Positions 7,280 through 45,890 of a DNA stretch of 52,321 nucleotides are shown one piece after another. Source of the stretch: a virus; IMG/VR virus record IMGVR_UViG_3300030046_000016, positions 1 through 52,321 of that record, one strand, 5' to 3'. The notes below the pieces were generated by a model. That model was not told the origin of the DNA. It saw only the letters and a program-made list of their open reading frames with translations, and did no database searches. Within the stretch, counting starts at the first letter, position 1. Every line of letters starts with the position of its first letter. A program made the position numbers and the translations under genes.

Positions 7280-7498
7280 AAGTGAGTACTGCGGTACGTA
7301 AACAGGTTTGACTTCTTCCGGCTCGGCGTCTACCAGTTCGAGGGTGAAGGCGTCGGGATCGGGCGCGGTGTATTCGATTGGTAGATCCGGCTGGTGGACC
7401 CGGTGCTCCGTTGGCAGACCGCAACCGGGCACAACACAACGTCCGGTCCAGTGATGGCGTTGCTCGAATGCGTGCGGGGTATGGCGTGGGTACATCAT
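7274..7498 (-). CDS. Hypothetical protein (74 aa)
   Basis: Begins with ATGATG at 7498, the first overlapping the upstream stop as ATGA. N-terminal His-rich segment with CVVPGCG (possible metal site), then an acidic Pro-rich tail. No domain recognised. The stop codon sits inside a partial copy of the dispersed 14-mer. Confidence 0.5.
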   Translation of the reverse strand: MMYPRHTPHAFEQRHHWTGRCVVPGCGLPTEHRVHQPDLPIEYTAPDPDAFTLELVDAEPEEVKPVYVPQYSLF

Positions 7499-7992
7499 TT
7501 TCGGCCTGCGATCTGGATGTTGTGGAAAGCGTCTTTTCCGTCGTAAGCGATATCGAAAGCGAGTGGCAACTTTGCTAACTGGTCGTGGTGCATGCGGTGG
7601 AGCAGGTACGCGGTGCCTGTGTAAAGTGCAACCACCCCTTCTGAGTAGAGAAACGCGCTGGTGTTGGTCTTCATCAGGCTGGGAACGTTCTCTTCTTTGT
7701 AGCAGTGGCAGGGGTTGGTTAGGTTGGCGCGGGTGCTGAAGGCGTCGACGGTGCGCACCAGACCGTCAGCACCGATCAAGCTGAGCATTACAGGGGTAAA
7801 AAATCGCGTCTGGCGGGCGGCTGGCGCCTTCGCTGGCTGAATCAGGGCGCTAGAGTATGCCTCAGACGGTTCCGGCGCGTCTGGGAGAGACGTAGAGACT
7901 TCGGTGGTGAAGTTGACGGGCTGAAGTTTCACATCCTGGGCGGCTGCGGATGCGGTAAGAGCGGCGAAGAGAATGAGCTTTGACGGGTTCAT
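7495..7992 (-). CDS. Exported membrane protein, host-like (165 aa)
   Basis: AAGGA precedes ATG 7992. Residues 1-19 are a signal peptide (NPSKLILFAALTASAAAQ). After a Pro/Ala-rich linker come two hydrophobic helices (FFTPVMLSLIGADGLVRTVD and YSEGVVALYTGTAYLLHRMH) separated by an NPCHCYKEEN loop with two Cys. The layout resembles small two-helix membrane proteins of Acidobacteria, but I cannot name a family. Inner-membrane or periplasmic location is inferred. Confidence 0.6.
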   Translation of the reverse strand: MNPSKLILFAALTASAAAQDVKLQPVNFTTEVSTSLPDAPEPSEAYSSALIQPAKAPAARQTRFFTPVMLSLIGADGLVRTVDAFSTRANLTNPCHCYKEENVPSLMKTNTSAFLYSEGVVALYTGTAYLLHRMHHDQLAKLPLAFDIAYDGKDAFHNIQIAGRK

Positions 7993-25072: not shown

Positions 25073-25756
25073 TCAGCGGCGACGTGTTTTTGGCGTGTAC
25101 TCGCCGTGGTACTTTTTCTCTGCTTTGCGGCGGGCCTGGATGGCTTGATGCTTCAGGCGAAAGGCTCCGAGATAGATCAGCTTCCCCTGGAAGCCAATGC
25201 TGGCCGTCCATTGTCCCGTCTTTTCGATTAGGTAAACACCTGTGTATCCGGTCTTATTTCTCTTACTGAGTCGATGATTGTGGAAGTTTTGAGCCCGCGT
25301 GCAGACGCGCAGGTTGTCCTTGCGATTGTCGAGGGTGTCCCCGTTGCGGTGGTCTACCATCTTTCCGGGGGGAGATCCCATAACGTCGCGGTGCAGGCCA
25401 ATTGAGCCACCCTCGGGAAGATGCCTCATTGCGTAGCCATTGCTCAGGGCGTAGTAGAAGTTACTGAACTTCTCGTAATCGTCGGCATCGACGATTGTGA
25501 AATACTGTCCGCCAAGGTGAATGAGGCGGAATGAACAATTAGCTCTGACAGGAGGGTCGACGCGCCGAACCCTTTTTCCATGGCCGTAAACACGAAGTTT
25601 AGGCATTCCCATGACGTGATTTAGGCAAGATTGCGATTGTTTCGCTATCCCTGTTTTCTCGCCGCAGCCGCAATGGCAAAGGCCGAACGGAATATCACAC
25701 TCGGGTTTTCTACAAATGCAAATACCAGCGGGTAATTCTATCTTCCTACGGGGCAT
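25073..25756 (-). CDS. HNH homing endonuclease with AP2-type tail
   Basis: Opposite strand to all neighbours, filling the gap after portal. ATG 25756 gives 227 aa; earlier in-frame starts exist to 25867. N-terminal Cys cluster (ICICRKPECD and FGLCHCGCGEKTGIA), then an HNH core (MVDHRNGDTLDNRKDNLRVC with the His/Asn residues), then an AP2-like part (KTGYTGVYLIEKTGQWTASI). It is a clear paralogue of the gene at 2411-3100. Its site suggests homing into the portal-scaffold junction. Confidence 0.85.
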   Translation of the reverse strand: MPRRKIELPAGICICRKPECDIPFGLCHCGCGEKTGIAKQSQSCLNHVMGMPKLRVYGHGKRVRRVDPPVRANCSFRLIHLGGQYFTIVDADDYEKFSNFYYALSNGYAMRHLPEGGSIGLHRDVMGSPPGKMVDHRNGDTLDNRKDNLRVCTRAQNFHNHRLSKRNKTGYTGVYLIEKTGQWTASIGFQGKLIYLGAFRLKHQAIQARRKAEKKYHGEYTPKTRRR

Positions 25757-29473: not shown

Positions 29474-30487
29474 ATGCCGATAATCCCTTCCACCTCCGTC
29501 CAAATCCCAAACCAAGTTCTTCCAACTCAGGGCGTAAATCCTTACGTCAACCAGATGAACTTCGGCCAGATGATCGGGCGAATCAATTCTGTGAATCCAG
29601 ATGCGACGGCGATCGCCGGCCAATGGATCAACGACGCCGTCAGGACGATCTACGATCGCAAGACGTGGTACGGGCTATTCACTAAAGGCCAGGTTGTTTG
29701 CCCTGCCGCGATTGTTGGCGGTACTGCGGCGACGACGCTGGGATCGGCTTCAGTGGTGGGGACGAACACCGCATGGACAGCCGATGTAGTCGGTCGGCAG
29801 TTCCGTATCGGCTACAACAATCCTATCTACACGATCATCGGCGTGGACACAGTGAACCAGGTGTTGACGCTGGAGATGCCGTGGGGTTCGCCATCGGTTT
29901 CGAGCGGCTACTTCATCGCGCAGTACTATTTCAATATCGGGCCGAACATCAAGTACATCAAGACGATGGTGAATATGATTCAGGCGATCAAGATTCGCCT
30001 GAATCTGACCCAGGACCTCCTCAACAATATTGACCCATGGAGGCAGTCGGGCGGAGTTTTTCCGTGGGGCGTCGCTGCGGTGCCACCAGACTCAAACGGA
30101 AACTACATCATCGAACTCTACCCGTTGTCGTGGATTCAGCAGGCGCTTCCGTTTTTGGCGTACACGCAGCCGCCGAATCTGGTCAACGATTCGGATGCGC
30201 TCCCGCCTTATATACGGGCGGACGTGGTCATCAAGCACGCGATTGCCGAGGCTCTGATCTGGCGTGGCCCGAGGCAGAATCCGTACTACGATGCGGCGGA
30301 GTCTGCGCGCAAACGTGCTGACTTTGAGGCTGAGCTATTGAAGATGGCCGACAATGATGAGAACCTGTATCGAACGAATCTTATATATCCAGGCGAAGGT
30401 TTGCCGTACTATACCCCTGGCGGCGGTCTATGGGATGCGATGCATCCGATCATGGCCGGCGGAGGTGGTGGATGGGACGACTATTAA
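29474..30487 (+). CDS. Head-tail connector/adaptor-like protein
   Basis: 337 aa. The frame has a helical core around a β-insert: MIGRINSVNPDATAIAGQWI and NDAVRTIYDRKTWY early, then ATTLGSASVVGTNTAWTAD with YTIIGVDTVNQVLTLEMPWG, and a C-terminal YIRADVVIKHAIAEALIWRG with a helix of SARKRADFEAELLKMAD. This helix/β-hairpin insert organisation matches podovirus head-tail adaptor proteins that dock beneath the portal. Two similar proteins follow at 37996 and 39393. Confidence 0.7.
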   Translation: MPIIPSTSVQIPNQVLPTQGVNPYVNQMNFGQMIGRINSVNPDATAIAGQWINDAVRTIYDRKTWYGLFTKGQVVCPAAIVGGTAATTLGSASVVGTNTAWTADVVGRQFRIGYNNPIYTIIGVDTVNQVLTLEMPWGSPSVSSGYFIAQYYFNIGPNIKYIKTMVNMIQAIKIRLNLTQDLLNNIDPWRQSGGVFPWGVAAVPPDSNGNYIIELYPLSWIQQALPFLAYTQPPNLVNDSDALPPYIRADVVIKHAIAEALIWRGPRQNPYYDAAESARKRADFEAELLKMADNDENLYRTNLIYPGEGLPYYTPGGGLWDAMHPIMAGGGGGWDDY

Positions 30488-30829: not shown

Positions 30830-31174
30830 ATGGCATATCAGCCATTTCGCAAGTTGGATGCAGGTAACGGCGTTGAGATTCCGGTGAACACGCACTCCGC
30901 GACGGATAACTTCTTCGTTGATCGCAGCCGTCTGCGGACAAAGGATTGCGTCGACTACGTCCCGAGCGAGAATCCGATGAAGATGGGAAAGTACGTGAAG
31001 CGCGTCGAGACTGCCTCGATTATGGACAACGTGCGAGCTTCGGTGGGGGATATCCGCGCTGTAGGCTCGTTCGAAAATCGGAAAGAGGGTGAGCGCCAAT
31101 CCGACCTCGGCGACTGCTGCGCTCCTATGAGCTACGGTCGCAACCCGATTACCCGCCGGAGAGGTGATGACTAA
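30830..31174 (+). CDS. Basic hypothetical structural-region protein (114 aa)
   Basis: GGGAGG before ATG. Charged, soluble, without domain: VDRSRLRTKDCVDYVPSENP and a basic end (GRNPITRRRGDD). Shares one base (TAATG) with the next gene. Probably a virion or assembly protein by position. Confidence 0.55.
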   Translation: MAYQPFRKLDAGNGVEIPVNTHSATDNFFVDRSRLRTKDCVDYVPSENPMKMGKYVKRVETASIMDNVRASVGDIRAVGSFENRKEGERQSDLGDCCAPMSYGRNPITRRRGDD

Positions 31175-31737
31175 TGATTCGTCCATATAGGGGAATTCAG
31201 GCACTTGGGGCAGCGTCGCAACCAGTCTTCGGCACCACCATGAACGGGGCTGGGGTGCAGACACTCGACCCATACTCTCAAAATACGAATCCAGGCAGCA
31301 ACCCGTCGCAGACCGTTCTGCCGGTGGTGTCGATCGTCGGCATGAAGACGGGCGATCATGTGCTTGTTGGGTTAAAGGCGGCCTTTGTTCCCGGCGGCGC
31401 GCTTGACCTCGGCATCATCGCTTCGATCAATACGGTAACCCCGTCGATCACAGTATCCGGCCTACTAAAGAATCACGCCAGCGGCGAGTATGTTGTGGTC
31501 AACGAAGACGCGATGAAGGTTTGGGTAGAGCCAGTGACGTCGACCAGCCCGATGTATCTGGGCAACGCCTCTACGGTCGCAGTTGGCGACTCGTCCGTTT
31601 TCTGGGTAGTCAACCTTCCGACAGGAGCAAACCCGTACCTCTCGGCAACTGACTTGGCGGACACGCTCAAGACGAGCGAGTTCTGGATTGACGGCACCAG
31701 TGGAGATACGTTTGTAGCAGGGTTCATGCAAGCTTGA
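31174..31737 (+). CDS. β-rich structural protein (187 aa)
   Basis: GGAGAGG before ATG. Val/Thr/Gly-rich, β-strand pattern (TVLPVVSIVGMKTGDHVLVG, SITVSGLLKNHASGEYVVVN) as in head or neck decoration proteins. No signal peptide, unlike the three following proteins. Function unknown. Confidence 0.55.
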   Translation: MIRPYRGIQALGAASQPVFGTTMNGAGVQTLDPYSQNTNPGSNPSQTVLPVVSIVGMKTGDHVLVGLKAAFVPGGALDLGIIASINTVTPSITVSGLLKNHASGEYVVVNEDAMKVWVEPVTSTSPMYLGNASTVAVGDSSVFWVVNLPTGANPYLSATDLADTLKTSEFWIDGTSGDTFVAGFMQA

Positions 31738-31747
31738 GGTGATTCAA

Positions 31748-33904
31748 ATGAAGGCGCTTCGAAAACTGTTTTGGTTCATAATCCTAGCGATTACCCCTGC
31801 AGTCTTCGCGGCGACAACGACTCTCTCTGCTACCGTAACCGACTCCGATAGTCAGGCGTGGGCGAACGGCACTTACGTGCTCACCTTTGTCTACAACCCG
31901 GCTGGCGGTGTCCCCGTAGTCGCGGGCCAGGCATTTACGCTCACCTTCTCCGGCACCCTCGATGGAACCGGGTCGTTTTCGCAAGTGGTGACGTCGACCA
32001 CCGGAACGACTCCAGCGACGAACCCTCCGGCAAGCGGCTGGTCCCTCAAAGTCTGTCCTCAGATGGCGAACACGCCCTGCTACTCAACGACTCCCCTGGC
32101 GGTGACAGGGGCGTCTCAGAGCATCACAACCCAAATCAACGCAGTCATCGTGGCGCCGCGCATCGCTGTCAACAGTTTGGCTGGCGCGTACAACGACACT
32201 GAAGTCCCAGGCGTAGGCGGGAGCCAGTACTTCCGGGTCACTGACAACACCTTCCGATGCTTTACGACTGCGTGGGGATCTTGCGGTGGAACCGGAACCT
32301 TCAACCAGTTGTCCGGAGACGCGATCAGCGGCTCGACCGGTGGGGCGACCGAGGTCGTTGGACTAATCAATCACCTTTTGCCGTCTCTAACGACCGGCTA
32401 CTTGAACTGGACGGGTACAGCATGGGCGCTATCGACGGTCACGGGCGGCCTAACGAGTTTCACCACTGGTAACCTATCCCCACTCTTCACGGCAGCTCTG
32501 GGGGCCAATCCGACGACCGCGCCGGCCTTGGCATTCACGGCTTCGACCGCGGTTCAAAATTCGGTGCTTGCGGGGCCTGCCACTGGCGGGACGGGGGCTT
32601 ATAGCTTCCGTGCTCTTGTCTCATCCGACATCCCGAACAACGCTGCGAACACGTCAGGGAGCGCCGGCAGCCTCAGTGCAGCCCTAAGCTTGAGCGGCCT
32701 AGCATCGCAGGCGGCTAACACGGTTGTAGGCGCGATCGCCAGCGGGTCTCCATCTGCGCTGCCTATGCCGTCCTGCTCGACGGCTGGGAGTAGTGCCCTT
32801 ATCTGGACGACGGGCACCGGTTTTGGCTGCAACTCGATTACTGGCGGCTCCATCAGTTTCCCGCAGACCGTGGCTGGCACGACCAACTCCGGCGGCATCC
32901 CATATTTCTCGAGCGCGACCGTGCTGACCTCATCGGCCGTACTTGCGGCAGGGCACCTTCTTCTTGGTGGTGGGGCTGGTGCAGCTCCAACTTCGGACGC
33001 CAACCTCGACGACAGCCAGACGACAGCAAACACGCTGACCTACGGTGGTGCCGGCGGTATCGCTTCGGCTGGCGGGTTTGCGTCGACGGGCAGCACGCAG
33101 GGAGCATTTGCTCTTGGCGTGGGATCGGGTACGGTTCCAACTACCCTTTTGCCGACCGCGTACAACGGCTGGATTGGCACCACTACTGGCACGCAAACCT
33201 ACTTTCAGCAGATGTGTGCAGCCAGCCCGACAGCGGGGCAGGTGATGGCGTTTGCGGTTCCCGGTACGGTCAATGGAGTCACGCAGTCCGTATGTTCGTG
33301 GATCACTCCGGTTACAGCCTTCTCTGGACTGACGGGCAATCTCGGGACAACTCAGGGACCATCATCTTTGACCGGACTACTAAAGGATGCCGCTGGAAGC
33401 CTCTCGGCGGCCACGGCAGGTACGGATTACGTCATCCCTTCGGGCAGCATCTCTGGAACTGCGGCCAACCTTTCGGGAACGCCAGCTCTACCCAACGGCG
33501 TGACCGCAACCACTCAGACTGCTGGCGACAACTCAACCAAACTAGCGACGACAGCCTACACGAACATTACGCCGACAATAGTATCGACGAGCGGATCACC
33601 GCTAACGCTGACGGGAGTATCTGGCGTTTACGTCAATAATAGTGGGGGGGCTTTCAATTGGGTCGTCGATGCTCCCGTTTTAGGAAAGACGTATTGCTTT
33701 ACAAATTATCCCGGTCAGACTGGTGTTCTAACGATCACGTCAACCACCAGCGTCTTTATCGCTTATGGGGGAACTAACGGAACGGTGACGACGGGAACGC
33801 TGGTTTCGGGCGGTGCAAAAGGTGATGCGCTTTGCATCGAAGGTCTTGACTCAACTCACTACAGCGCATTTGGGGCGGGATTTGGCGTATGGATAAACCA
33901 CTAG
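31748..33904 (+). CDS. Tail-fibre-like protein with signal peptide
   Basis: 718 aa from ATG 31748 (GAGGTG 8 bases upstream). Residues 1-21 are a textbook signal peptide: KALRK, then LFWFIILAITPAVFA, cleavage after VFA. The mature protein is Thr/Ser/Gly-rich β-repeat sequence, with an early VTDSDSQAWANGTYVLTFVY fibre-type domain and a late fibre signature, TAGTDYVIPSG then TATTQTAGDNSTKLATTAYT. Fibres bind the host surface. Phage fibres normally fold in the cytoplasm, so the leader is unexpected. A degenerate ATGCAAGC element precedes the start. Overlaps the next gene by 16 bases. Confidence 0.75.
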   Translation: MKALRKLFWFIILAITPAVFAATTTLSATVTDSDSQAWANGTYVLTFVYNPAGGVPVVAGQAFTLTFSGTLDGTGSFSQVVTSTTGTTPATNPPASGWSLKVCPQMANTPCYSTTPLAVTGASQSITTQINAVIVAPRIAVNSLAGAYNDTEVPGVGGSQYFRVTDNTFRCFTTAWGSCGGTGTFNQLSGDAISGSTGGATEVVGLINHLLPSLTTGYLNWTGTAWALSTVTGGLTSFTTGNLSPLFTAALGANPTTAPALAFTASTAVQNSVLAGPATGGTGAYSFRALVSSDIPNNAANTSGSAGSLSAALSLSGLASQAANTVVGAIASGSPSALPMPSCSTAGSSALIWTTGTGFGCNSITGGSISFPQTVAGTTNSGGIPYFSSATVLTSSAVLAAGHLLLGGGAGAAPTSDANLDDSQTTANTLTYGGAGGIASAGGFASTGSTQGAFALGVGSGTVPTTLLPTAYNGWIGTTTGTQTYFQQMCAASPTAGQVMAFAVPGTVNGVTQSVCSWITPVTAFSGLTGNLGTTQGPSSLTGLLKDAAGSLSAATAGTDYVIPSGSISGTAANLSGTPALPNGVTATTQTAGDNSTKLATTAYTNITPTIVSTSGSPLTLTGVSGVYVNNSGGAFNWVVDAPVLGKTYCFTNYPGQTGVLTITSTTSVFIAYGGTNGTVTTGTLVSGGAKGDALCIEGLDSTHYSAFGAGFGVWINH

Positions 33905-35871
33905 TTCTTATCATATTGCTGGCGCTCTGCCTCCCCGCGAGAGCGCAGATGCTCTCCTACATTGTGAATATGCAGGGGGTTACCGGCATCGGCCTGATTG
34001 CGAATACCTCCTGCAACAACACGTCGAGCGGAGGAAACTGCACTACGAGCGCGGTCAACACTACTGGCGCAAATATCTGTATATGGACGGTCTCTGACTT
34101 CGGTTCGAACGGAACTGCCGGATCGGTTGCCGATCTCGCGGGCAACATCTGGTATGGACCCTACCTGCAATGCGATACGACCTGCGGCGGAGGAACCGAA
34201 AACAACCGCGTCTACTACGCCCCAAACCTAATCACAAATGCTTCCGAGACCTTTACATGGACTGGAACTACCTTTGCATCGAGCGCCATTGCCTGTTTCT
34301 CCGGGGTGGCTCACTCGGCTCCCATAGGCCAGTTCACGCAGGCTGGAGCGGCTACAAGTGTCAGCACCCTTGCAGCAGGTTCGATGACTCCGGTAAGCGC
34401 CAATAACCTTATCGTAACTAGTTGGGCGAATGGTTCGGCCACGGCAGGACCGACAGTCTCCTCTCCCTATACCATTACTAATTCACACTTCAATGTGTCG
34501 AACACGACCGCTTACGGGCTTGCCTATGATGTGCAGACTACCGCTGCGGCAATCAACGGAACATGGTCGTGGACTACGGGGGGTGTGGCGGCGGTGAACC
34601 AAGTTGGATTTCTGCCTGCGTCAGTTGGAAATACCTTCGATCTGTTCTTCAACTTCGAGACTTCAACTAGTGGTACGGCAATCACACAGCCTATTGCGGT
34701 AGCGAGTGCGGTGAGCGCGGGACAGTTGAATGGCGCATCGGGCAATTTTACAGTTCCAGCAACTACACCGGGGACACAAGAGATTTTATCGGCATGTCAA
34801 TCGCCACCACAGATAACAGGAAAGAATATTGCTGGAACCTCGAACACCGACTCCTCCGGCACGAGAGGGCTGGCGAATATCACGGCAGCAGCCAACCTCT
34901 CCGCGCAGATGAAATACGTGATGCCGCTGGCGCTCCCGGCCAACCCTAATGTAATGCTGATTGCGGCATGGGATCTGCCCTTCATCGCTGCTGGCGAAAC
35001 GGGAACGTTCTATTCGATGTTCGGGCCTAATAACGGCGGTGACTTTTCCTCGTTGATGCACCACAACGGGACGCTCTATGTCGAGACCCACCTGAACCTG
35101 AACGGGAATGATGACTTCGCAAACCCGGCTACAAGTCTGGGCGGAACGATCCCCAACGGGGCCTTCCAGTGGACGACCGGCTCCTCGACCACTTCGAACA
35201 CGGTGGGGACGGGGGCACTGACCTTTACCACTGCGACATCATTAGGCCTCGCTGCTGGCACTTGGGTGGAGATTGCAACCAGCAACAACCTTGGCACAGC
35301 GTCTGGGGCGATGCTGGCACAAGTCACGTCTGATACCGGAACGACGCTAGTAGTCAACTCGCATAAGGCTTACGGCAGCGGTACGGCGACAAGCTGGGTC
35401 ATCATCCCCTGGTATTACATCAACGAGCAGTTTGTTGGCTATAATGTTGCGACCACAGGCACATCATCCTGCACGGCGGTCACGGGATCGTGCACGATCA
35501 CGACTGCCACCGCGCTAGGCCTAGCTGCCAATACCGTAGTCAGTTTCTTCAACGGGACGACGAACGGCATAACCGGAATCGTGACGTCCAACGTGGGAAC
35601 AAATTTGACCATGACTGGCATCAACTCCTTCGGCAGCGGATCGCTATCGACCGGAAACGTATCAACCTCGGCGCATACACAAGAGATTTACGACTCTCTC
35701 GGCAACCTGCTTTCGACCCAGCAGAAAGCCTCTAACCCGGCGCAATCCGGATCACCGACCAACTTCGCCTTTGGGTTCGGTGGTGATAACGGCGATGCCG
35801 GAAACACGATCTGCATCGACGGTGTAGCAGTGCAGTGGTCGGGCGCAGCAGAATACCCGGTGACGCCATGA
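33889..35871 (+). CDS. Fibre/adhesin-like protein with signal peptide
   Basis: 660 aa. Signal peptide DKPLVLIILLALCLPARAQ, cleavage after ARA. Long Thr/Ser/Asn/Gly-rich β-sequence with Cys pairs (CNNTSSGGNC, QCDTTCGGGTE); two internal segments share the pattern ALTFTTATSLGLAAGTWVEI / SCTITTATALGLAANTVVSF, an internal duplication. The last 100 residues (AFGFGGDNGDAGNTICIDGV) look like a jelly-roll receptor-binding end. Extracellular or virion-surface role inferred. ATGA overlap with the next gene. Confidence 0.65.
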   Translation: MDKPLVLIILLALCLPARAQMLSYIVNMQGVTGIGLIANTSCNNTSSGGNCTTSAVNTTGANICIWTVSDFGSNGTAGSVADLAGNIWYGPYLQCDTTCGGGTENNRVYYAPNLITNASETFTWTGTTFASSAIACFSGVAHSAPIGQFTQAGAATSVSTLAAGSMTPVSANNLIVTSWANGSATAGPTVSSPYTITNSHFNVSNTTAYGLAYDVQTTAAAINGTWSWTTGGVAAVNQVGFLPASVGNTFDLFFNFETSTSGTAITQPIAVASAVSAGQLNGASGNFTVPATTPGTQEILSACQSPPQITGKNIAGTSNTDSSGTRGLANITAAANLSAQMKYVMPLALPANPNVMLIAAWDLPFIAAGETGTFYSMFGPNNGGDFSSLMHHNGTLYVETHLNLNGNDDFANPATSLGGTIPNGAFQWTTGSSTTSNTVGTGALTFTTATSLGLAAGTWVEIATSNNLGTASGAMLAQVTSDTGTTLVVNSHKAYGSGTATSWVIIPWYYINEQFVGYNVATTGTSSCTAVTGSCTITTATALGLAANTVVSFFNGTTNGITGIVTSNVGTNLTMTGINSFGSGSLSTGNVSTSAHTQEIYDSLGNLLSTQQKASNPAQSGSPTNFAFGFGGDNGDAGNTICIDGVAVQWSGAAEYPVTP

Positions 35872-37991
35872 GAAAATTTATCTGCTTCCTCCTCCTATCG
35901 CTTCCGTGCGCAGCGCAACTAACCTCCGGAGTCATTGATTCAAGCCGCACTATAGACTGGACATCTGCCGGTGTAGTTGGCGGTATTCCTACACGTAGCA
36001 CAATCTGCTCAACCCTGGGAACGGCTGGCCAAGCACCAAGCTTTGCGCAGTCGGTGACTGCCGCTAACATCAACTCAGCGATCACTGGATGCGCATCGAA
36101 TGAAGTAGTGTTACTGAATCCTGGAACCTATAGCATCACGGCGTCGATCAATCTGAAGTCAAATGTGACCCTAAGGGGCTCCGGCGCGAACCAGACCCTT
36201 TTGGTCGTCCCTGCGGGCGGGTATTCGGGTGGTGCATGTTCAGCCATTGTCTGCTTTACATCGGATTCGAACACGTTTTCCGGTGCGTCTACGGTCCAAC
36301 CGGGTGGCTCGAATGCAGCGACTTGGACGGCAGGATTCACGCAGGGGACTACCAATATAACCCTCACCTCTGTGGGCAGCAACGGACTCAGCGTCGGCAA
36401 ATATATCATCCTCGACCAAGCCAACGTAGCCTCGCCTACGGGCAACATGTTCTTTTGTGACACGAACCCTACAACGTGCTCCATACAGCCCGGTAATGGG
36501 TTCCGCGTGGTTAGCGGAGTAGATCACGGTATTGCGCAGATGGTGCAGATTACCGCGTGCTCCCCGTCGTGTACGTCAGGATCGACCTTCACCATATCAC
36601 CCGGATTGTACGGACAGAACTGGTCTAGCAGTAACAATCCGGGCGCGTGGTGGCCTTCATCTACCGTGCAGAACGCCGGAATAGAAAACCTGACCATCGA
36701 TGACCGCCTGGATACGGGAAATTCCAGTTCGCTCAATATTTCATTCTTCAATTCCGCGAATGATTGGGCTACTGGACTAGCGACTTACCTACCCGGAAGA
36801 TCACATATCCAGCTTGCCGACGCTGCGCACATCACGATTATGAACAACTATGCTTGGGGCACCAAGAACGCGCTCAGTTCAAGTTACGGGCATGAGAGCT
36901 TTCTGACCTCGGACAATCTGATCGTCAACAACATCTACCAGCAGGTTTCCTCGCCACAGATGACCCAACTGGATACGGGAACGGTCAGGGCCTACAACTA
37001 CGACATTCTCGACCTGTTCTGCCAGAACGGGACGCAGTGCAATTCACCTTCAGGCGCACCGAATACAACACCCGGTGGGCCTCTAGGGCTAACGACTACA
37101 AACCACAATCCCGGAGTGATGGACGTTCTCTGGGAAGGCAATATAACCCCCGGCTACAAGTCCGACGACGTACACGGCTCTGGCGGTATGTCTACCTACT
37201 TCCGCAATCAGGTTTATGGGTGGTCTGCTGGCTCGGCAAATGCGAATAATGACGGTTTCTGGAACTGGGCTTTTGCTGCACTAAGCTATAACCGTGCGCT
37301 GAGCATCGTGGGCAACGTAATCGGGAAGCCGGGATTCGCTTCGGTGTATCAGGGTACCGACACTACATCTAATACCACCGGTGAAATATACGACCTCGGC
37401 TGGGGCGATGGCGTAACCAACGACACGACCGCTCCAAGTGTGGCCTCAACCCTTCTACGGTGGGGCAACTGGGATGCTAAGACGAACGCGGTCAGATGGT
37501 GCGGCAACTCATCCGATACCGGCTGGTCTACGACCTGCTCCTCTACCTCTGAGATTCCCACAGCAATCGGAACCTATCAGAGTGCAGTCCCGACCCTGGG
37601 TGACACCGGAGCAGGTCAGAGCGCAATGCCTGCATCGTTTGCATTCTCATCGAAACCATCATTTATCCCAGCCGCAAAGCCTTGGCCGTTGATCGGCCCC
37701 GACGTGACCGGTGGAAACCTGCTGGTCTGTACGAGCGGAACCTATAACGGTTATTTGGTGGTCAATAACAGCCAGTGCGCAGGCGGAACCTCAGCGATGG
37801 CGCTGGGTGGCATGGTCAACAGCATCCCGGCGATGGACTGCTATCTGAACACGATGAGTGGAACTCCAGACGGTAGTGGCACGACGCCGAATACTGCATT
37901 CAACGCTTCAGATTGTTATGCGGTCACCATATCGCCACCTCTCAACGTATCAGGCAGGGCTGTTACGATAGGTAGCGCGGCGTCCCGCTAA
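35868..37991 (+). CDS. Right-handed β-helix (pectate-lyase-like) protein with signal peptide
   Basis: 707 aa from ATG 35868 (ATGA overlap). Signal peptide RKFICFLLLSLPCAAQ. Then the parallel β-helix entry typical of depolymerase spikes: ANINSAITGCASNEVVLLNP, YSITASINLKSNVTLRGSGA, followed by rungs (AGIENLTIDDRLDTGNSSSL; HIQLADAAHITIMNNYAWGT; DNLIVNNIYQQV). Such folds cut or bind polysaccharide at phage tailspikes, or act as secreted lyases. Here the presence of a leader leaves open which. No catalytic residues assigned. Confidence 0.75.
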   Translation: MRKFICFLLLSLPCAAQLTSGVIDSSRTIDWTSAGVVGGIPTRSTICSTLGTAGQAPSFAQSVTAANINSAITGCASNEVVLLNPGTYSITASINLKSNVTLRGSGANQTLLVVPAGGYSGGACSAIVCFTSDSNTFSGASTVQPGGSNAATWTAGFTQGTTNITLTSVGSNGLSVGKYIILDQANVASPTGNMFFCDTNPTTCSIQPGNGFRVVSGVDHGIAQMVQITACSPSCTSGSTFTISPGLYGQNWSSSNNPGAWWPSSTVQNAGIENLTIDDRLDTGNSSSLNISFFNSANDWATGLATYLPGRSHIQLADAAHITIMNNYAWGTKNALSSSYGHESFLTSDNLIVNNIYQQVSSPQMTQLDTGTVRAYNYDILDLFCQNGTQCNSPSGAPNTTPGGPLGLTTTNHNPGVMDVLWEGNITPGYKSDDVHGSGGMSTYFRNQVYGWSAGSANANNDGFWNWAFAALSYNRALSIVGNVIGKPGFASVYQGTDTTSNTTGEIYDLGWGDGVTNDTTAPSVASTLLRWGNWDAKTNAVRWCGNSSDTGWSTTCSSTSEIPTAIGTYQSAVPTLGDTGAGQSAMPASFAFSSKPSFIPAAKPWPLIGPDVTGGNLLVCTSGTYNGYLVVNNSQCAGGTSAMALGGMVNSIPAMDCYLNTMSGTPDGSGTTPNTAFNASDCYAVTISPPLNVSGRAVTIGSAASR

Positions 37992-37995
37992 AATT

Positions 37996-38682
37996 ATGGC
38001 AACCATCGCTTCACTCGCGGCCGACGTTCAGAATCGTTTAGAGGAGCCCGTGGGGCCAGGCGTATTCTGGAAGCTCGCGACCGAAATTTACCCCGGCCTG
38101 GTCGAGGCATGCAACGAACTGATGCTTCTGGTGGGACGACCAACGCAGATCGTCAGCCAGCCATTCTCGATCGTGCCGAATACCCCGTGGCAACTCGTCC
38201 CCAAAGGGATGCTCTGCATCACCAACGTTCAAGGTGCGGCTTCGGAGGCGTGGAAGTATACGCTTGAAGACCTCGACTATCTCCAAAACTCATGGGGATC
38301 GGACTGGGAGCAGGATATGGGCGATGTCATCGAGCATTGGGCTCCGCTCGGCTTCAATATGTTTGTGGTGCATCCCTCGGTCTACACGGGCCAAACAGTG
38401 CTCCTCACTGGAATTCAGTACCCTTCGACCGAGACTTGGCCTTATGATGGAGCGCAGACGGTGCCGTTTGAGGACCAATTCTTTTCGGCGCTTCAGGAGT
38501 ATGCCGCGCACTACGCACGGTTCAAGGAGGCTGGAAATGAATTCAGCGAGAGCAATAAAATGCTCCAATCGTTTTTAGACCAGGCGGCGCGCATGACGCA
38601 GATTCAGGACCGCCGCGATATTTACATTTGGTCTCGCGCTACCGGGGCACCCATGCAGGTCAATCCAATCAAACGAAGGTGA
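37996..38682 (+). CDS. Connector/adaptor-like protein (228 aa)
   Basis: ATG 37996, without a clear ribosome site, 4 bases after the spike gene. Helical N-terminus (SLAADVQNRLEEPVGPGVFW then LATEIYPGLVEACNELMLLV), β middle (QPFSIVPNTPWQLVPKGMLC) and helical C-terminus (FFSALQEYAAHYARFKEAGN). This α-β-α layout recurs in phage adaptor proteins; 29474 and 39393 share it. Confidence 0.6.
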   Translation: MATIASLAADVQNRLEEPVGPGVFWKLATEIYPGLVEACNELMLLVGRPTQIVSQPFSIVPNTPWQLVPKGMLCITNVQGAASEAWKYTLEDLDYLQNSWGSDWEQDMGDVIEHWAPLGFNMFVVHPSVYTGQTVLLTGIQYPSTETWPYDGAQTVPFEDQFFSALQEYAAHYARFKEAGNEFSESNKMLQSFLDQAARMTQIQDRRDIYIWSRATGAPMQVNPIKRR

Positions 38683-39392: not shown

Positions 39393-40565
39393 ATGGCAAC
39401 GACGGGCGTCGGGTACAGAACTGCAAACGACGTCCTCATCGAAATCAGTCTCCGACTGTGTGAAAACTACGTCAGCACCACCCTGGCCGCGGACGTATCC
39501 ACCGGACTGCAAACCGTACCTTTAGCCTCTTTCGACAACGCCGTCTACGCTGGCGCGATGCTTGTGGTGGGAACCGGCGCCGACCTCGAAATCATCACGG
39601 TCGTAACCGCCAACCCGGAGACCAACGAGATTCAGGCAAACTTCGGTTTTGGCCACGCATCGGGCGAGACGGTTACTGCAGCAACCTTTCCATCGCAGCA
39701 GCCGACCGACCCGTACTTCACCCAGGCGGAGATACTTGATTATCTGGCGCGAGCTCAAAACGAGTTTCTGTCGAAGGTGCCAGCCTTCTACACCATCTAC
39801 GAGCAGAACGCGCTCTACGGAAACATCTTTCAATCACTGCCCGACACGGCAACCCAAATCGACCGCGTCGCCATCTCCACCGTTTACATCCCAACGGTAT
39901 CGCTGACTCGCACGGGCGGCGTAGTGACCGCGGTAACGAACGACCCAAGCGTACTGGTCGTCGGCAGCACCTTCTTCGTCTACGTGGCGCCCAGTTCGTC
40001 AGGCGAGGGCTATGGCGAAGGCGGATTCGGCGAGGGCGGGTACGGCGGAAGTACCTTTGCCGACACGTCGTTTACCGGAGTCTTTCAGGTTGCCAGCGTT
40101 ATCAACTCCACAACGTTTACCTACAACCAGATTGGCCCCGATTCGACCACTGACACGGCGCTCATTTACTACTGGGTCCGGCTGTACGAGATCACGATGG
40201 CTGAACTCACTATGCAGAACCGGAACTGGCGAAACGACTACGCGAACAACCCCACTGCTTTTTTCGAAGATCGCTCCGGACTCTACCAGTTTGGACTTAA
40301 CGCGCCACCGTCGAGCAACTTCCCGATTGAGATCCTGACCGCCACTCGGGACTCCGACACCCTGCTGCTGACCGATGGCTTCCTTGTCCCCGACGTCTGC
40401 CTCCACTACGTCATCTACAAAACGATGGAGTACATGTTTACCAAGGAAGGCGTTCGCATTCAGCCGATGCTTGCGAACTACTGCAAAGGGAGGTTCGACC
40501 GTGGGGTGGATACGACCAACCGGTACATCGACAATATGCTGGCGATGAAGAGCGGGAGGCGCTAA
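39393..40565 (+). CDS. Connector/tail-tube-like structural protein (390 aa)
   Basis: GGGAGA before ATG. N-terminal helices (NDVLIEISLRLCENYV), β-type inserts (SLTRTGGVVTAVTNDPSVLV), a Gly-rich loop (SSSGEGYGEGGFGEGGYGGS), and a C-terminal helical end (VCLHYVIYKTMEYMFTKEGV, MLANYCKGRFDRGVD). The C-terminus resembles head-tail adaptor proteins of podoviruses. TAATG overlap with the next gene. Confidence 0.6.
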   Translation: MATTGVGYRTANDVLIEISLRLCENYVSTTLAADVSTGLQTVPLASFDNAVYAGAMLVVGTGADLEIITVVTANPETNEIQANFGFGHASGETVTAATFPSQQPTDPYFTQAEILDYLARAQNEFLSKVPAFYTIYEQNALYGNIFQSLPDTATQIDRVAISTVYIPTVSLTRTGGVVTAVTNDPSVLVVGSTFFVYVAPSSSGEGYGEGGFGEGGYGGSTFADTSFTGVFQVASVINSTTFTYNQIGPDSTTDTALIYYWVRLYEITMAELTMQNRNWRNDYANNPTAFFEDRSGLYQFGLNAPPSSNFPIEILTATRDSDTLLLTDGFLVPDVCLHYVIYKTMEYMFTKEGVRIQPMLANYCKGRFDRGVDTTNRYIDNMLAMKSGRR

Positions 40566-41533
40566 TGGCTAACAAGCCTGCCCCTGTTCAATTCAGCAAC
40601 TTCACCAAGGCAGATTTTGACGACCCCAATATGGGGTACTTCAACACGGTGATGCAGCAGTTCGCCAATGCGATCAACGCAGGCAACGGATCAGCCGGAA
40701 AGACTGCGCTGCCAGCGGGAATCGACATGCAAGGTGCGACGGTGAGCGGGGTTGGGGAGCCACAATCTCCGACTGACGCCATCAGCAAGGGTCATGCCGA
40801 GAAAAACTACTCTGCGCAGGCTCTTGCTCCTCAACTTGAGGCTGGGACAAAAACTGGTCCTGGCCTCAAGACGTATCGGGCGCTCAATTCGAAGACACAG
40901 CAGGAGAGCTACAGCACCTTCCTCAATGGCGTGACCAACACCGCACCGACCACCAATACCTCGATTGTCTCGGCTGGAGCACCATCAGGTGGATCAGTAA
41001 CTTTCACTATCAGCGCAGGCTTCCACCTCTATGTCGATGGCTCGATCGTCCCTTACGGCACGTTCTCCGACACGGTTCCATTACCAAGCTCACAGGCGAT
41101 TACGTCGATGACGCGGACATCGGGCGTAGTCACGGCCACAGGCGTATTTACTGGACTGTCGGCGGGTGAGTCGATCTATGAACTGGGTGCGCTGGACTCG
41201 TCGTTTGATGGAACCTTCGAACTTATTAGCGCTTCAGGTACGACGCTGACGTGGGCCCAGCCCGGTTTTGCCGATGGGACAACTACCGGAGGCGCGGCTT
41301 CAACAGGCGGGTGTTACTACGTGTACCTCAAGAATCCAAGCCACACCTTAGCGGTTTCAGGACCCTTTAGCAGCGATAGCCAACAGAATCGTCTTGCAGC
41401 TAACGTAGACGGGCAAGTGCTGATCGCGGTCGTCGTCATCAACGCCGGCGGCGTGGTGACGACGCAGAGTGCCGCCGGAGCTACCGTGCCCGCCGCGCAG
41501 AATAACGGGAATCGTATCGTCGCCAGATTGTAG
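40565..41533 (+). CDS. β-rich tail-region protein (322 aa)
   Basis: Coupled by TAATG. N-terminus FTKADFDDPNMGYFNTVMQQ and ATVSGVGEPQSPTDAISKGH: the latter type of segment is common where fibre or collar proteins attach. Then Thr/Ser/Gly-rich β-strands. No signal peptide. Probably virion, no precise role. Confidence 0.6.
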   Translation: MANKPAPVQFSNFTKADFDDPNMGYFNTVMQQFANAINAGNGSAGKTALPAGIDMQGATVSGVGEPQSPTDAISKGHAEKNYSAQALAPQLEAGTKTGPGLKTYRALNSKTQQESYSTFLNGVTNTAPTTNTSIVSAGAPSGGSVTFTISAGFHLYVDGSIVPYGTFSDTVPLPSSQAITSMTRTSGVVTATGVFTGLSAGESIYELGALDSSFDGTFELISASGTTLTWAQPGFADGTTTGGAASTGGCYYVYLKNPSHTLAVSGPFSSDSQQNRLAANVDGQVLIAVVVINAGGVVTTQSAAGATVPAAQNNGNRIVARL

Positions 41534-41550: not shown

Positions 41551-41844
41551 ATGGCCATCCAGATCGTGAAGTCGGACGTCGACGGTATGACCGGACACTT
41601 TCAGGTCACGTTTCGCGTAAGGGATGGCGACACCTTTGGCCCTGAAGAAACTCATGGACTCTGGCCGCACGCGTTGTTTCGTACCTACCACGGCGATGGG
41701 CCGCGAACGCCGGAGAGCATAAAGGCAGCGATGTCGAAGTGGCTGAAAGAGCGTCACGCGGAGGCTTTGGCGCGGAAGCAGCACATCGACCTAATGACAA
41801 ACGTCGCTCATAGTTTCAAAGGCCAGGTGGTGACCTTCGAATGA
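41551..41844 (+). CDS. Hypothetical protein (97 aa)
   Basis: GAGG before ATG; ATGA overlap with the nozzle-like gene. Small α/β protein (MTGHFQVTFRVRDGDTFGPE) with a helical, charged C-terminus. Position suggests a tail accessory. Confidence 0.55.
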   Translation: MAIQIVKSDVDGMTGHFQVTFRVRDGDTFGPEETHGLWPHALFRTYHGDGPRTPESIKAAMSKWLKERHAEALARKQHIDLMTNVAHSFKGQVVTFE

Positions 41845-44800
41845 GCCAGGACACTCAATACAAACCAGTAGAGATGGTGTACGAGAGCAAGGGGATTATA
41901 GCCCGCGCTGTCACTGACGAATGCCCGCCGGGAACTTTTCTGAATCTAATGAATGCGTACGAGCGCGCCGAGAACTCCATGTCTTCGCGCTATGGCACCC
42001 AGATCATCAACCGCGACCCGGTTGGCGTGGGGACCAGTAATTACTTCTTCCCTGACCCGATCACCACGCTGGCGCGCCTGACTTACAAGACGAATGCATA
42101 TCGCTATGCAGGCGACTCCGAAGGCAACCTCTATCGAAGGACTGGCAATACGCAGGGGCAGTACACCAACATCTTCACTGGCCTATCAGGGTCTCCGTTT
42201 GGCTGGCTGGATGGCAGCACCTTCGAGTCGAGCCTCCCTTACCTCTTCATCTACGACGCCAACACTTCAATCAAGGACTCCGGTACTGGAACGCCGGAAC
42301 TTACCGGAATTGATTCCTCGCCGTACACGCTCAACACTGTACCCTACTCGCCCCTGCTAACCCTGATCGATAACTTTGCCCCTGGCAACGCCTACACCAC
42401 GAGCGGATTCTCGGGCGGATGGGCCTATAGCGCGGTGACCAAGCTGCAAGCCTCTTCCGGCCAGACCGTCACCGATTTCACCGACTTTTTTGGAGTGCAG
42501 CCATTTGGGGCAGGCACCTTCTCGATTGCCGGAGGCGCGAACAACGCGAGCGTTACAGCTCCAGGCTCGACAAGCAACGTGCAGATTTACTCCGGCTTCG
42601 CGTCCGCTCCGGTTACCGGGACTGAGACCGTATCGCTGTCGATGTTCGTCAACGTTCCCACTGGTGGGATCCCCGGCAATTCCGGCTCGCGCACAATTTC
42701 ACTCGACTATTCCATCAACTCTGGTGTGACATGGACTAACTTCTTCAGCCAGACCGGTAGCTCCAATCAACAGATTGGCGGCAGCCCCAGCCTCAATATC
42801 CCCGGACTCAGCAATATCGACACCCTCCAGATCAGGTCGACGATGTCGGTTATCGCCACAGCCGGGACAGTTGGCGGCACTGCGACTACCTTCGACATCA
42901 ACGCGGTCATCACCGCACCCGACGTCTTCAATCAGATCACCAACGGGATGCTGAGCGTCCTTAATACGAACACTGTTGTGCAAGTGCCAATCTCGTCGAT
43001 CGTGACCAGTGGATTTGCGTTTGGCATGTACACCGCACTCCTGATTACGACACAGGAGCCGCATGGACTGACGGGCACCACCAGCATCTCCATCTATGGA
43101 AGCTCAAACGATCTGTTGGATGGGTTCTATACAGCTACCGTTTCGAGCGCGACCACGCTAACGGTTCCCTACAAGTCAGGCGCACTGCTGAGCGCGACGG
43201 GCGGAACCCTCAACGGCGGAGCAGCCGCACCGAATACATGCGTTTTGACGGCAGAATATTCGAATCCCTACCCGCCGCAGATGTCGGCATGGGGCTTCTA
43301 TCAGCAGGTGCCGACCACAGAGACGGCGTTTCAGGTTGGCTCGTTCGTTGGCACGGTTGCGCAGAATACAACTGCGACGGTTGGTGTTACCGTTCCAATC
43401 AATTTAAACATCAATAATCAGGCGACCGATGATGACCTCATTGTGCTCACGCTCGCAGTGGGCGATCCAGCGGCAATCTCAAATATCCGCATCCAGTTTG
43501 ACGTCAACGGATCGGGCTATACCTCGGCCTACTACTACAAGGATATCTCGCCAGTTTTCTATCAGGCAGGGGTTCAGCAGCTCCAGGATGCCTACACCAC
43601 GACTGAGCAGCAGATTTTCGCCGATACCCTCGGACTCCTGACGGGGCAAGTGCCTAACTCAACGACAGCGCAGTTGCAGCCTGGCAACATCTCGACTGGT
43701 CAGGGGTCGTGGCAAACGATCTATCTGCGCAGGGGGGATTTCACGCCGATTGGGAACGCCGGAGAGTCTGGCTCTGACTGGACAGCGGTCACTGGATGGC
43801 AACTCGTTATCACCACCAACACGGTTGGCTCGTCGACGGTCGCATGCAACGGCCTCTATTTCCAGTGGGGCTACGGGCCAAGCTCTTTCGGGGGGACAGG
43901 ATACGACTATCGGGCCACATACTACGACGCGAACACCGGCACTGAGTCGAACGGAACTCCGGAGCAGGAGTTCAATACACAGTTCGGCTACCTCGCGTCG
44001 CTAGCGGCACCCTTCTTTTTGCGTCAGGCCGCGCAGGTCAACGGATTTTACTCAAATGACCCGCAGGTGACTCACGTCCGCATCTACCGCCGCGGCGGTA
44101 TCTACCCAAACAACTGGCTCAATATTGACCAAATCCCGAACGTAATCAACGCTGTCGCGAGGTTCAATCCATTCAGCTACAAGGACGTCATCCCCGACGC
44201 GGCTCTGGCGCAAGCGCCGGGACTCATTCTGGATAACGACCCCCCGGTGACGAGCTCACTCGAAGACCCGATCGCGACGACGCTATCGTTGCCGACAAGT
44301 TCGCCGGGAAGCTCTCTCTACAGCGCCTTCGTCCCGCAACTCATCAGTGTCGCGCAAGCGTCGGCAGTCTTCGTTGCAAATCAAACCGTCGTTATTGGCA
44401 ACGCGGTGAACCTTGAAGAGATTCAGGTCATCACGGGTGGTACAGGATCGTTCACCGGGATACTGAGGCTTCAGCACAACGCAGGCGAACCAGTGTATGC
44501 ATTTTCTACGCCGAGAACGCCATGCGACCAGTGCGCGTTCGCTTACGGCCAGGTGTGGCTGGCGGGCGATAAGAACAATCCGAACTTCCTTTACTACTCT
44601 AAGCCAGGATATCCGGAGAACTTTGGGCCGGAGGACTATCTCGAGGTTGGAAGCTCCAGCGACATCATCAATGCGGTCGTCAACTGGCGCGGGACGCTCT
44701 ACGTAGGTACTCAGCTATCGTGGTACGTCATCACAGGGGGTGCAACGCCGGGATGGCAGCCCACTGGGTCAATCCACGGCATCGTGGCCAACAAGGGCTG

Positions 44801-45890
44801 GACGCAGGCCGAGGGTGGCATCTGGTATCAGGCAGCGGATGGTCAAAGACTCTTCCGTGGGTCTGAAGGCACGTACATGACGCTGGAGGTGGAGTGGCTC
44901 TATCGTCTCCCATCGGCTACGCAGGTGACGCCGATTCCGCTTGTCGACACCACACAGCTTTCGCAGGTGGTTATGGCGTTCTGGAACAACGATGTCTACT
45001 TGTCGTATGTCAGCCTGAATAACAGCGGCCAGCGGTATCGCCTCATCTACAACACAAGCTACAACCGGTTCCGCGATGACGATATCCCGGCAACTGCGAT
45101 GCTCTGGGAGCAGGACACCAACCTTTTGCTGACGGCGAAGCAGTTGGGTACGTCAGCCAACTACGTCATTGTGCAGGAGGGTGTAGGCGACTCTGACGAT
45201 GGCGGGTGGGCTGGCACACAGCTAACGACCCTGCCGATCGCCCTGGACATTCAAACGCCGTATCGCGGAAGCTCTCACTTCCCAAACCAGTTCAACGTGC
45301 TTGAGACCGATGCAAGTACCGCGAGTCAGGATATGGCGACGACGCTGCTCTTCGACACGGAGCCTCCGGTATCGCTTGTTCTGGACACCTTCAACACTGA
45401 GGGCGTGCGCCAAAAGAATCAACTCCAGATCAACGATGGCGACGGGCAGCAAGCGTACTCGATGAGCATTCAGCACACCATGAACGTGTTCAACGCGCCG
45501 GTTCTCTATCAGGAGAATATCTACGTCGCGGTGCTCGCAGGCTATCGGACCAGCCGCGATACGTATTGGATCAAGTTTGGGACGGATGCCTCGAAGCTGG
45601 TGAAGCAGGGCTACTTCGATTACCAGTCGACCGCGCCGATTATCTACAACCTCTACGCGGATGGGAGCGATGTACCGTATTACACCTTCACCTTGCCTGC
45701 GGCTCCAAATCGGGCAGTGGTGCGCGTGAGGTTTGGCCAGAATGACGGCGTGAATTCGGCGGTCATCCTGCGCACCTTCCGCATGATCGGCACGAGCACG
45801 GCGCCCTACCAAGACTGGGCAAACCCGAGAGTTGAATTCAAGGCGGTTGCCGAAGGGGCGAGCTACGCGATAGGAGAACTGAATCCATGA
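41841..45890 (+). CDS. Giant tail nozzle/stabilisation-like protein (1349 aa)
   Basis: Largest gene in the window. N-terminal segment GIIARAVTDECPPGTFLNLM, then RYGTQIINRDPVGVGTSNYF; a mid region of β-sandwich inserts; and a C-terminal β-propeller-like half: ENFGPEDYLEVGSSSDIINA, RGTLYVGTQLSWYVITGG, VANKGWTQAEGGIWYQAADG, RYRLIYNTSYNRFRDDD. Podovirus nozzle proteins (gp12-like) are β-propellers with inserted domains that close the tail, and are located beside connectors. Function from size, place and fold pattern, not signature. A reverse 14-mer copy lies at 44504. Confidence 0.65.
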   Translation: MSQDTQYKPVEMVYESKGIIARAVTDECPPGTFLNLMNAYERAENSMSSRYGTQIINRDPVGVGTSNYFFPDPITTLARLTYKTNAYRYAGDSEGNLYRRTGNTQGQYTNIFTGLSGSPFGWLDGSTFESSLPYLFIYDANTSIKDSGTGTPELTGIDSSPYTLNTVPYSPLLTLIDNFAPGNAYTTSGFSGGWAYSAVTKLQASSGQTVTDFTDFFGVQPFGAGTFSIAGGANNASVTAPGSTSNVQIYSGFASAPVTGTETVSLSMFVNVPTGGIPGNSGSRTISLDYSINSGVTWTNFFSQTGSSNQQIGGSPSLNIPGLSNIDTLQIRSTMSVIATAGTVGGTATTFDINAVITAPDVFNQITNGMLSVLNTNTVVQVPISSIVTSGFAFGMYTALLITTQEPHGLTGTTSISIYGSSNDLLDGFYTATVSSATTLTVPYKSGALLSATGGTLNGGAAAPNTCVLTAEYSNPYPPQMSAWGFYQQVPTTETAFQVGSFVGTVAQNTTATVGVTVPINLNINNQATDDDLIVLTLAVGDPAAISNIRIQFDVNGSGYTSAYYYKDISPVFYQAGVQQLQDAYTTTEQQIFADTLGLLTGQVPNSTTAQLQPGNISTGQGSWQTIYLRRGDFTPIGNAGESGSDWTAVTGWQLVITTNTVGSSTVACNGLYFQWGYGPSSFGGTGYDYRATYYDANTGTESNGTPEQEFNTQFGYLASLAAPFFLRQAAQVNGFYSNDPQVTHVRIYRRGGIYPNNWLNIDQIPNVINAVARFNPFSYKDVIPDAALAQAPGLILDNDPPVTSSLEDPIATTLSLPTSSPGSSLYSAFVPQLISVAQASAVFVANQTVVIGNAVNLEEIQVITGGTGSFTGILRLQHNAGEPVYAFSTPRTPCDQCAFAYGQVWLAGDKNNPNFLYYSKPGYPENFGPEDYLEVGSSSDIINAVVNWRGTLYVGTQLSWYVITGGATPGWQPTGSIHGIVANKGWTQAEGGIWYQAADGQRLFRGSEGTYMTLEVEWLYRLPSATQVTPIPLVDTTQLSQVVMAFWNNDVYLSYVSLNNSGQRYRLIYNTSYNRFRDDDIPATAMLWEQDTNLLLTAKQLGTSANYVIVQEGVGDSDDGGWAGTQLTTLPIALDIQTPYRGSSHFPNQFNVLETDASTASQDMATTLLFDTEPPVSLVLDTFNTEGVRQKNQLQINDGDGQQAYSMSIQHTMNVFNAPVLYQENIYVAVLAGYRTSRDTYWIKFGTDASKLVKQGYFDYQSTAPIIYNLYADGSDVPYYTFTLPAAPNRAVVRVRFGQNDGVNSAVILRTFRMIGTSTAPYQDWANPRVEFKAVAEGASYAIGELNP
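44504..44517. repeat. Dispersed 14-mer, perfect copy (minus strand)
   Basis: TTCTACGCCGAGAA on plus, inside the nozzle-like gene. Confidence 0.75.

Follow-up and report, generated by a model that had tools for sequence, protein, structure and literature searches.

A slot for exchangeable Sec-leadered, fiber-like proteins in a lineage of SU10-like phages

Introduction

Why would a tailed phage carry secretion leaders on consecutive fiber-like proteins, when conventional tail fibers and spikes fold and assemble in the cytoplasm? The question is raised by three adjacent genes (genes 1, 2, and 3) of IMGVR_UViG_3300030046_000016, one linear IMG/VR virus record whose whole stretch of 52,321 nucleotides we call the window. 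The original prediction described their products as fiber- or spike-type proteins with signal peptides for the general secretory (Sec) pathway and offered three explanations: secretion during infection to act on the surface polysaccharide of other cells, decoration of virions after export, or capture of the block from a host adhesin cluster. We find that all three genes encode such leaders and that they occupy a slot whose protein bodies are exchanged among related phages while the leader is kept. We favor, with a probability of roughly 55%, the explanation that the block is an exchangeable cassette whose fiber-like products are exported through Sec, are rich in disulfide bonds, bind or cut glycans, and would act outside the cytoplasm.

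Results

Three consecutive genes encode predicted Sec leaders

Genes 1, 2, and 3 encode proteins of 718, 660, and 707 amino acids (aa), as first described, and each starts with a leader of the Sec/signal peptidase I (SPI) type (Table 1). We used a mechanical, home-made Sec/SPI test, by which some real leaders are missed. All three proteins pass it, with scores of 5.97, 6.68, and 4.90, respectively, and in 20,000 trials with shuffled N-termini the pass rates were 5.5%, 3.9%, and 2.3%. Across 585 proteins from the collected loci, 61 real N-termini passed versus 8 shuffled ones. Chance leaders are ruled out by these shuffles together with the homologues described below. Among the structural genes of the window, these three alone pass the test; two early minus-strand genes (3614-4234 and 7495-7992) do.

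The usual features of a Sec/SPI substrate (a positive n-region, an uncharged hydrophobic core, and small residues at -3 and -1) are present except that the n-region of gene 2 (MDK) has a net charge of 0 and gene 3 has C at -3. An A-x-A cleavage site had been claimed for every leader; since the -3/-1 pairs are V/A, A/A, and C/A for genes 1, 2, and 3, only gene 2 is strictly of this form. Similarly, each gene was said to overlap the next, which holds for the first two junctions (16 bp between genes 1 and 2 and 4 bp between genes 2 and 3) but not for gene 3, which ends 4 bp before the following adaptor-type gene.

Wrong start codons are a disfavored explanation for the leaders, as a Shine-Dalgarno-like GAGGTGA lies upstream of the leader start of gene 1. 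The starts of genes 2 and 3 each lie within the preceding gene. Gene 2 has an ATG directly after the leader that could serve as a later start; this is unlikely because all three genes, as well as homologues of genes 1 and 3, have in-frame leaders. We rejected a lipoprotein reading of gene 3 (LSLPC), which has no lipobox and has Pro at -1. By sequence, the predicted export of the three proteins is well supported.

The leaders look functional

We found Gln at the +1 position in 36 of 75 phage leaders versus 6% at the ten positions that follow (p 3e-24), a cysteine content of 1.7% in the mature parts versus 0.6% for core virion proteins (p 8e-25), and an even number of cysteines in 57 of 68 leadered proteins, in counts that rest on the home-made predictor and on partly related sequences. 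Leaders are also retained in homologues at 26 to 45% identity. They are present in 7 of 8 viral homologues of gene 3, the eighth (L003) having a start that resembles a leader but does not pass the test, and in all 8 tested homologues of the gene 1 N-terminal domain. By the +1 Gln, the cysteine pattern, and the retention in remote homologues, the leaders look functional.

A preference for Gln at +1 is known as the Q-rule and was described as specific to Bacteroidetes (PMC5837995). Here, it appears in about half of the leaders but in phages of probable Acidobacteriota. In sampled Acidobacteriota stretches (L181-L215), +1 Gln occurred in 10 of 36 leaders, from a small sample with crude gene calls. 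A Q-rule-like preference may therefore extend beyond Bacteroidetes.

The leader and the slot are conserved while the protein bodies are exchanged

By its markers, which are portal PF23899, two SU10_adaptor PF24175 genes, a phrog_2 terminase, and a phrog_9953 capsid protein, the window phage is an SU10-like, short-tailed podophage. Its host is probably an acidobacterium, judging from its relatives: the capsid profile matches a contig of an uncultured Acidobacteria metagenome-assembled genome (MAG) at 78% identity, and the best cultured capsid matches are the Tunturiibacter phages Tunturi_1 and Tunturi_2 (25% identity, E 6e-16). A single weaker MAG match to the capsid profile is labeled Alphaproteobacteria.

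The three-gene block lies between adaptor and nozzle genes, the position of SU10-type long tail fibers. It had been proposed to sit between connector genes as an insert would, and both parts of this proposal are borne out. The flanking genes both match SU10_adaptor, three small genes separating the left one from the block, and the slot is closed within 1 to 10 bp in seven capsid relatives (L069, L079, L082, L091, L107, L111, and L116). In two others (L072 and L108) it holds an unrelated short gene, and in others it holds long proteins. As a separate observation, the slot proteins L072 15652-16335 and L108 15064-15747 have an N-terminus (PYG[FY]CHC.CGQKT) similar to that of an HNH-type gene (HNH_3) that follows the portal gene in the window (25073-25756, minus strand).

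With a relaxed test, which combined one rule with a wider choice of starts and was applied alike to slot and core proteins of 39 lineage loci, all 19 slot proteins with a length of 350 aa or more had a leader. The corresponding numbers for core proteins were 0 of 128 at that length and 4 of 394 at 150 aa or more (Fisher p 3e-24). The stricter first test gave leaders on 15 long slot proteins versus 0 of 394 core proteins; the slot proteins of L070, L077, L097, and L141 were negative by it, with leaders visible by eye. Closely related phages without the leaders were expected to speak against the original prediction. The whole block is indeed absent from some relatives, but no long slot protein found in this lineage lacks a leader. 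In the remote loci L121, L125, and L126, none of six long slot-region proteins is leadered, so the leadered slot is a trait of this lineage and not of all capsid relatives.

The bodies of the slot proteins are mostly unrelated, with almost nothing in common beyond the leader. Therefore, the leader and the slot are what is conserved. Comparison of the slot proteins revealed no common N-terminal segment for docking on the adaptor, and the adaptors showed no indel tracking slot content beyond one column. On the adaptor tree there are five changes of slot state, at least four of them forced. By these sequence comparisons, the block is an exchangeable insert. A glycine-rich stretch (for example, QQGGGGGPGGGG) follows soon after the leader in slot proteins of L094, L101, L105, L092, and L141.

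Leadered slot genes occur in cultured phages

Tunturi_1 and Tunturi_2 (PP887698 and PP885685) share with the window a related capsid protein and the same slot, with three overlapping leadered genes and two more, but the bodies encoded there are unrelated to those of the window apart from a short repeat in gp13. In Tunturi_1, the leadered genes are gp12, gp13, gp14, gp16, and gp17, of which gp14 is deposited as a tail spike and gp17 as a virion structural protein; terminase, portal, capsid, gp30, and gp31 have no leader. Tunturi_2 repeats this pattern, with gp13 read from its deposited start. The paper describing the Tunturi isolates makes no mention of signal peptides or mass spectrometry.

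In the siphophage Tunturi_4, gp113 and gp114 are leadered, and for the tail fiber gp111 an in-frame leader lies ahead of the start given in the record. The gp111 frame (L159 30076-33171, equal to 80076-83171 of the record) is open for 119 codons before the deposited GTG start at 80433; read from its TTG start, it encodes a leader resembling the one on gp113. As deposited, gp111 thus probably lacks its leader. Over 664 aa, Tunturi_1 gp17 matches Tunturi_4 gp114 at 50% identity, and both are annotated in their records as virion structural proteins. This similarity indicates that leadered genes are passed among phages that infect the same host genus but are otherwise unrelated. A rule for all Acidobacteriota phages was rejected, as Tunturi_3 has no leadered fiber in its first 50 kb.

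Gene 3 resembles tailspikes and polysaccharide lyases

Gene 3 has a weak pectate-lyase-like Pfam match (PF12708, E 1.8e-4, below the curated cut-off). A structural model built from nine sequences had a mean predicted local distance difference test score (pLDDT) of 52 and a predicted template modeling score of 0.61 and was confident in parts only; a model from four sequences (pLDDT 29) was useless. With the partial model, Foldseek gave a probability of 1.00 against tailspikes and lyases. The N-terminal half resembles the beta-helix of the tailspike depolymerases K1 capsule lyase (7w1c, the best match, E 6.8e-12), LKA1 gp49 (4ru4), and phi297 gp61 (4ru5), with E values of 6.8e-12 to 1.7e-8 but about 11 to 16% identity. 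These depolymerases are virion-borne and, to our knowledge, leaderless. The partial model thus presents gene 3 as a tailspike- or polysaccharide-lyase-like right-handed beta-helix.

We also searched 199 Acidobacteriota genomes and found relatives of gene 3 in 8 of them with its profile. Several of these chromosomal relatives begin with a leader, or with something resembling one, and have the same motif after it. Two are clearly placed, L208 (G151) and L200 (G155, a 7.48-Mb contig), and both lie in exopolysaccharide clusters, adjoining Wzy_C and sugar-nucleotide or polysaccharide genes; the context of a third (L211) is not clear. Phage homologues of gene 3 may end in domains of secreted proteins, such as choice-of-anchor D in L217. 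A precedent is WceF of Pantoea stewartii (PMC7949094), an exopolysaccharide-cluster enzyme that is exported and has the tailspike fold. Like the two cellular relatives, WceF is encoded in such a cluster, and it shares the tailspike-like beta-helix and export; it differs in being bacterial and in using the twin-arginine translocation (Tat) route, whereas gene 3 is phage-borne and has a Sec leader and a putative activity. Gene 3 probably binds or cuts host exopolysaccharide, and for this gene the proposed action on polysaccharide gains support from the two chromosomal contexts.

Genes 1 and 2 are less informative

The fiber repeat of gene 1 occurs in phage proteins with a scored leader (21 proteins) and without one (22 proteins), and at least 5 of the latter have N-termini resembling leaders missed by the test. 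For gene 2, we found no relatives except an identical contig. Both genes were unmatched in the 199 Acidobacteriota genomes, in searches that had no positive control, with weak matches only for the gene 1 N-terminal domain. Searches of INPHARED by tblastn gave no matches for genes 1 and 3, and sequence searches against solved structures gave nothing convincing for genes 2 and 3. Our guess is that genes 1 and 2 encode glycan-binding or adhesive fibers. Capture of the whole block from one host cluster is not supported, given the unmatched genes 1 and 2, the gene 1 repeats in other phages, and the different leadered proteins that related phages carry in the slot.

Neighboring and early genes

The features of the locus are collected in Table 1. 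The leaderless fiber-like gene beside the nozzle-type gene is retained in several phages with an empty slot, and family searches with the nozzle-type protein gave no match. Of the two early genes that pass the Sec/SPI test, 3614-4234 combines a Sec-type leader with a C-terminal PEP-CTERM motif (PF07589, 30.8 bits, cut-off 20.7; TIGR02595, above cut-off), as if its product were sorted by a host exosortase; a PEP-CTERM pattern scan of the other collected phage loci found no such motif. The other, 7495-7992, has the leader MNPSKLILFAALTASAAA followed by Q, and a family search gave no match.

Table 1. Leaders, slot genes, and flanking genes in the window
Feature	Position	Strand	Description
Gene 1 leader, residues 1-21	31748-31810	+	Predicted cleavage between VFA and A; MKALRKLFWFIILAITPAVFA followed by ATTT
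Gene 2 leader, residues 1-19	33889-33945	+	Predicted cleavage between ARA and Q; MDKPLVLIILLALCLPARA followed by QMLS
Gene 3 leader, residues 1-16	35868-35915	+	Predicted cleavage between CAA and Q; MRKFICFLLLSLPCAA followed by QLTS
Gene 1 (P0001, 718 aa)	31748-33904	+	Leader 1-21, N-terminal beta-type domain ~22-185, phage-fiber repeats, C-terminal domain with Cys pair
Gene 2 (P0002, 660 aa)	33889-35871	+	Leader 1-19, 10 cysteines in mature part
Gene 3 (P0003, 707 aa)	35868-37991	+	Leader 1-16, predicted right-handed beta-helix, 16 cysteines in mature part
Adaptor-type protein 1, left border of slot region	29474-30487	+	SU10_adaptor PF24175, E 3.5e-7
Small conserved protein directly before slot	31174-31737	+	In relatives, homologues lie immediately before the slot or before the second adaptor gene
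Adaptor-type protein 2, right slot border	37996-38682	+	SU10_adaptor PF24175, E 1.8e-6
Leaderless fiber-like protein beside nozzle-type gene	40565-41533	+	Putative role, from sequence and position
Nozzle-type tail protein, 1349 aa, leaderless	41841-45890	+	Putative role, from position and size

Discussion

We propose that the three proteins would be made late in infection, together with the structural proteins, and would cross the inner membrane via Sec, where signal peptidase I would remove the leader. The mature proteins would then fold with disulfide bonds in the periplasm and act there, at the cell surface, or, once the cell has lysed, in the medium. The beta-helix of gene 3, whose relatives include exported proteins encoded in the host's exopolysaccharide clusters, would bind or cut exopolysaccharide. 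The likely benefit is that surface glycan would be stripped or masked, so that progeny could escape the matrix and would not re-adsorb to debris or infected cells. Our literature searches, whose coverage was incomplete with most subscription journals outside it, returned no published report of leadered tail-fiber slots.

Several observations weigh against this explanation. Secretion and leader cleavage are predicted, and the host is read from relatives. The p values given above are optimistic because the sequences behind them are partly related, gene 2 has no informative relative, and the gene 3 model is partial, with TM-scores mostly of 0.2 to 0.3. Most directly, the block sits where SU10 encodes its long tail fibers, gp12 and gp13, which dock on adaptor gp11, gp12 doing so via its N-terminus (PMC9509320). 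Some leadered slot proteins match tail-fiber or tailspike PHROGs, and the gene 1 repeat is common to leaderless phage fibers. Together, the position, the family matches, and the repeat suggest virion fibers.

These same three points favor the strongest alternative, namely, that the proteins are true virion fibers or spikes that are exported, mature with disulfide bonds in the periplasm, and join the tail when lysis mixes periplasm and cytoplasm. In Tunturi_1, moreover, the large fiber or spike candidates between adaptor and endolysin are all leadered, and the similarity of gp17 to Tunturi_4 gp114 links two proteins deposited as virion components. However, the SU10 fibers, which share the slot (after adaptor gp11 and before gp16/gp17) and the long fiber-type build, have no leader, few cysteines (2 and 3), and N-terminal docking on the adaptor, whereas the window proteins have Sec leaders, are rich in cysteine, and have no common docking domain. 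Because such a domain is missing after the leaders although the adaptor is conserved, because the adaptor does not track slot content, and because related phages manage without the slot, we favor free or surface-bound action over late decoration of virions, which we regard as unlikely, though the best of the alternatives. We know of no tailed phage shown to assemble exported fibers at lysis.

A still less probable explanation is that the leaders are relics of capture from a host secretome, or are tolerated or serve as hydrophobic anchors, with folding and assembly proceeding in the cytoplasm as for conventional fibers. The leadered chromosomal relatives of gene 3 fit this idea. A relic would decay, however, and these leaders are retained on every long slot protein of the lineage despite turnover of the bodies, persist also in remote homologues and cultured phages, and come with a +1 Gln and a cysteine pattern that match exported proteins. 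Finally, it is very improbable that the proteins serve as decoys that, once exported, use receptor-binding domains to occupy the receptor from the inner side and so prevent superinfection or re-adsorption, in the manner of the lipoprotein Llp of phage T5: export signals, fiber-type repeats, exchangeability, and absence from some relatives would suit this role, but the proteins are very large for the task, gene 3 looks enzymatic or glycan-binding, and no receptor is known.

The explanation that we prefer, an exported glycan-acting cassette, concerns a soil-phage lineage with cultured relatives in which every long protein of the tail-fiber slot has a Sec-type leader and the bodies are swapped while the leader is kept. 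If the proteins are secreted, infection by these phages would involve the release of a large and rapidly changing repertoire of glycan-acting proteins, and the "carbohydrate-active" genes of soil viruses would have to be read differently. If the proteins are instead virion components, fiber assembly would include a periplasmic stage. Labels like "tail spike" and "virion structural protein" may also be wrong where they are applied to phages of this kind. That tailed phages of soil bacteria have part of their fiber set exported through Sec, matured with disulfides in the periplasm, and attached at lysis, which would make the periplasm a second compartment of virion assembly, is a possibility to which we give only about the same low credence as late decoration itself, or slightly less. 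The cultured Tunturi phages make both the secreted and the periplasmic-assembly readings testable.

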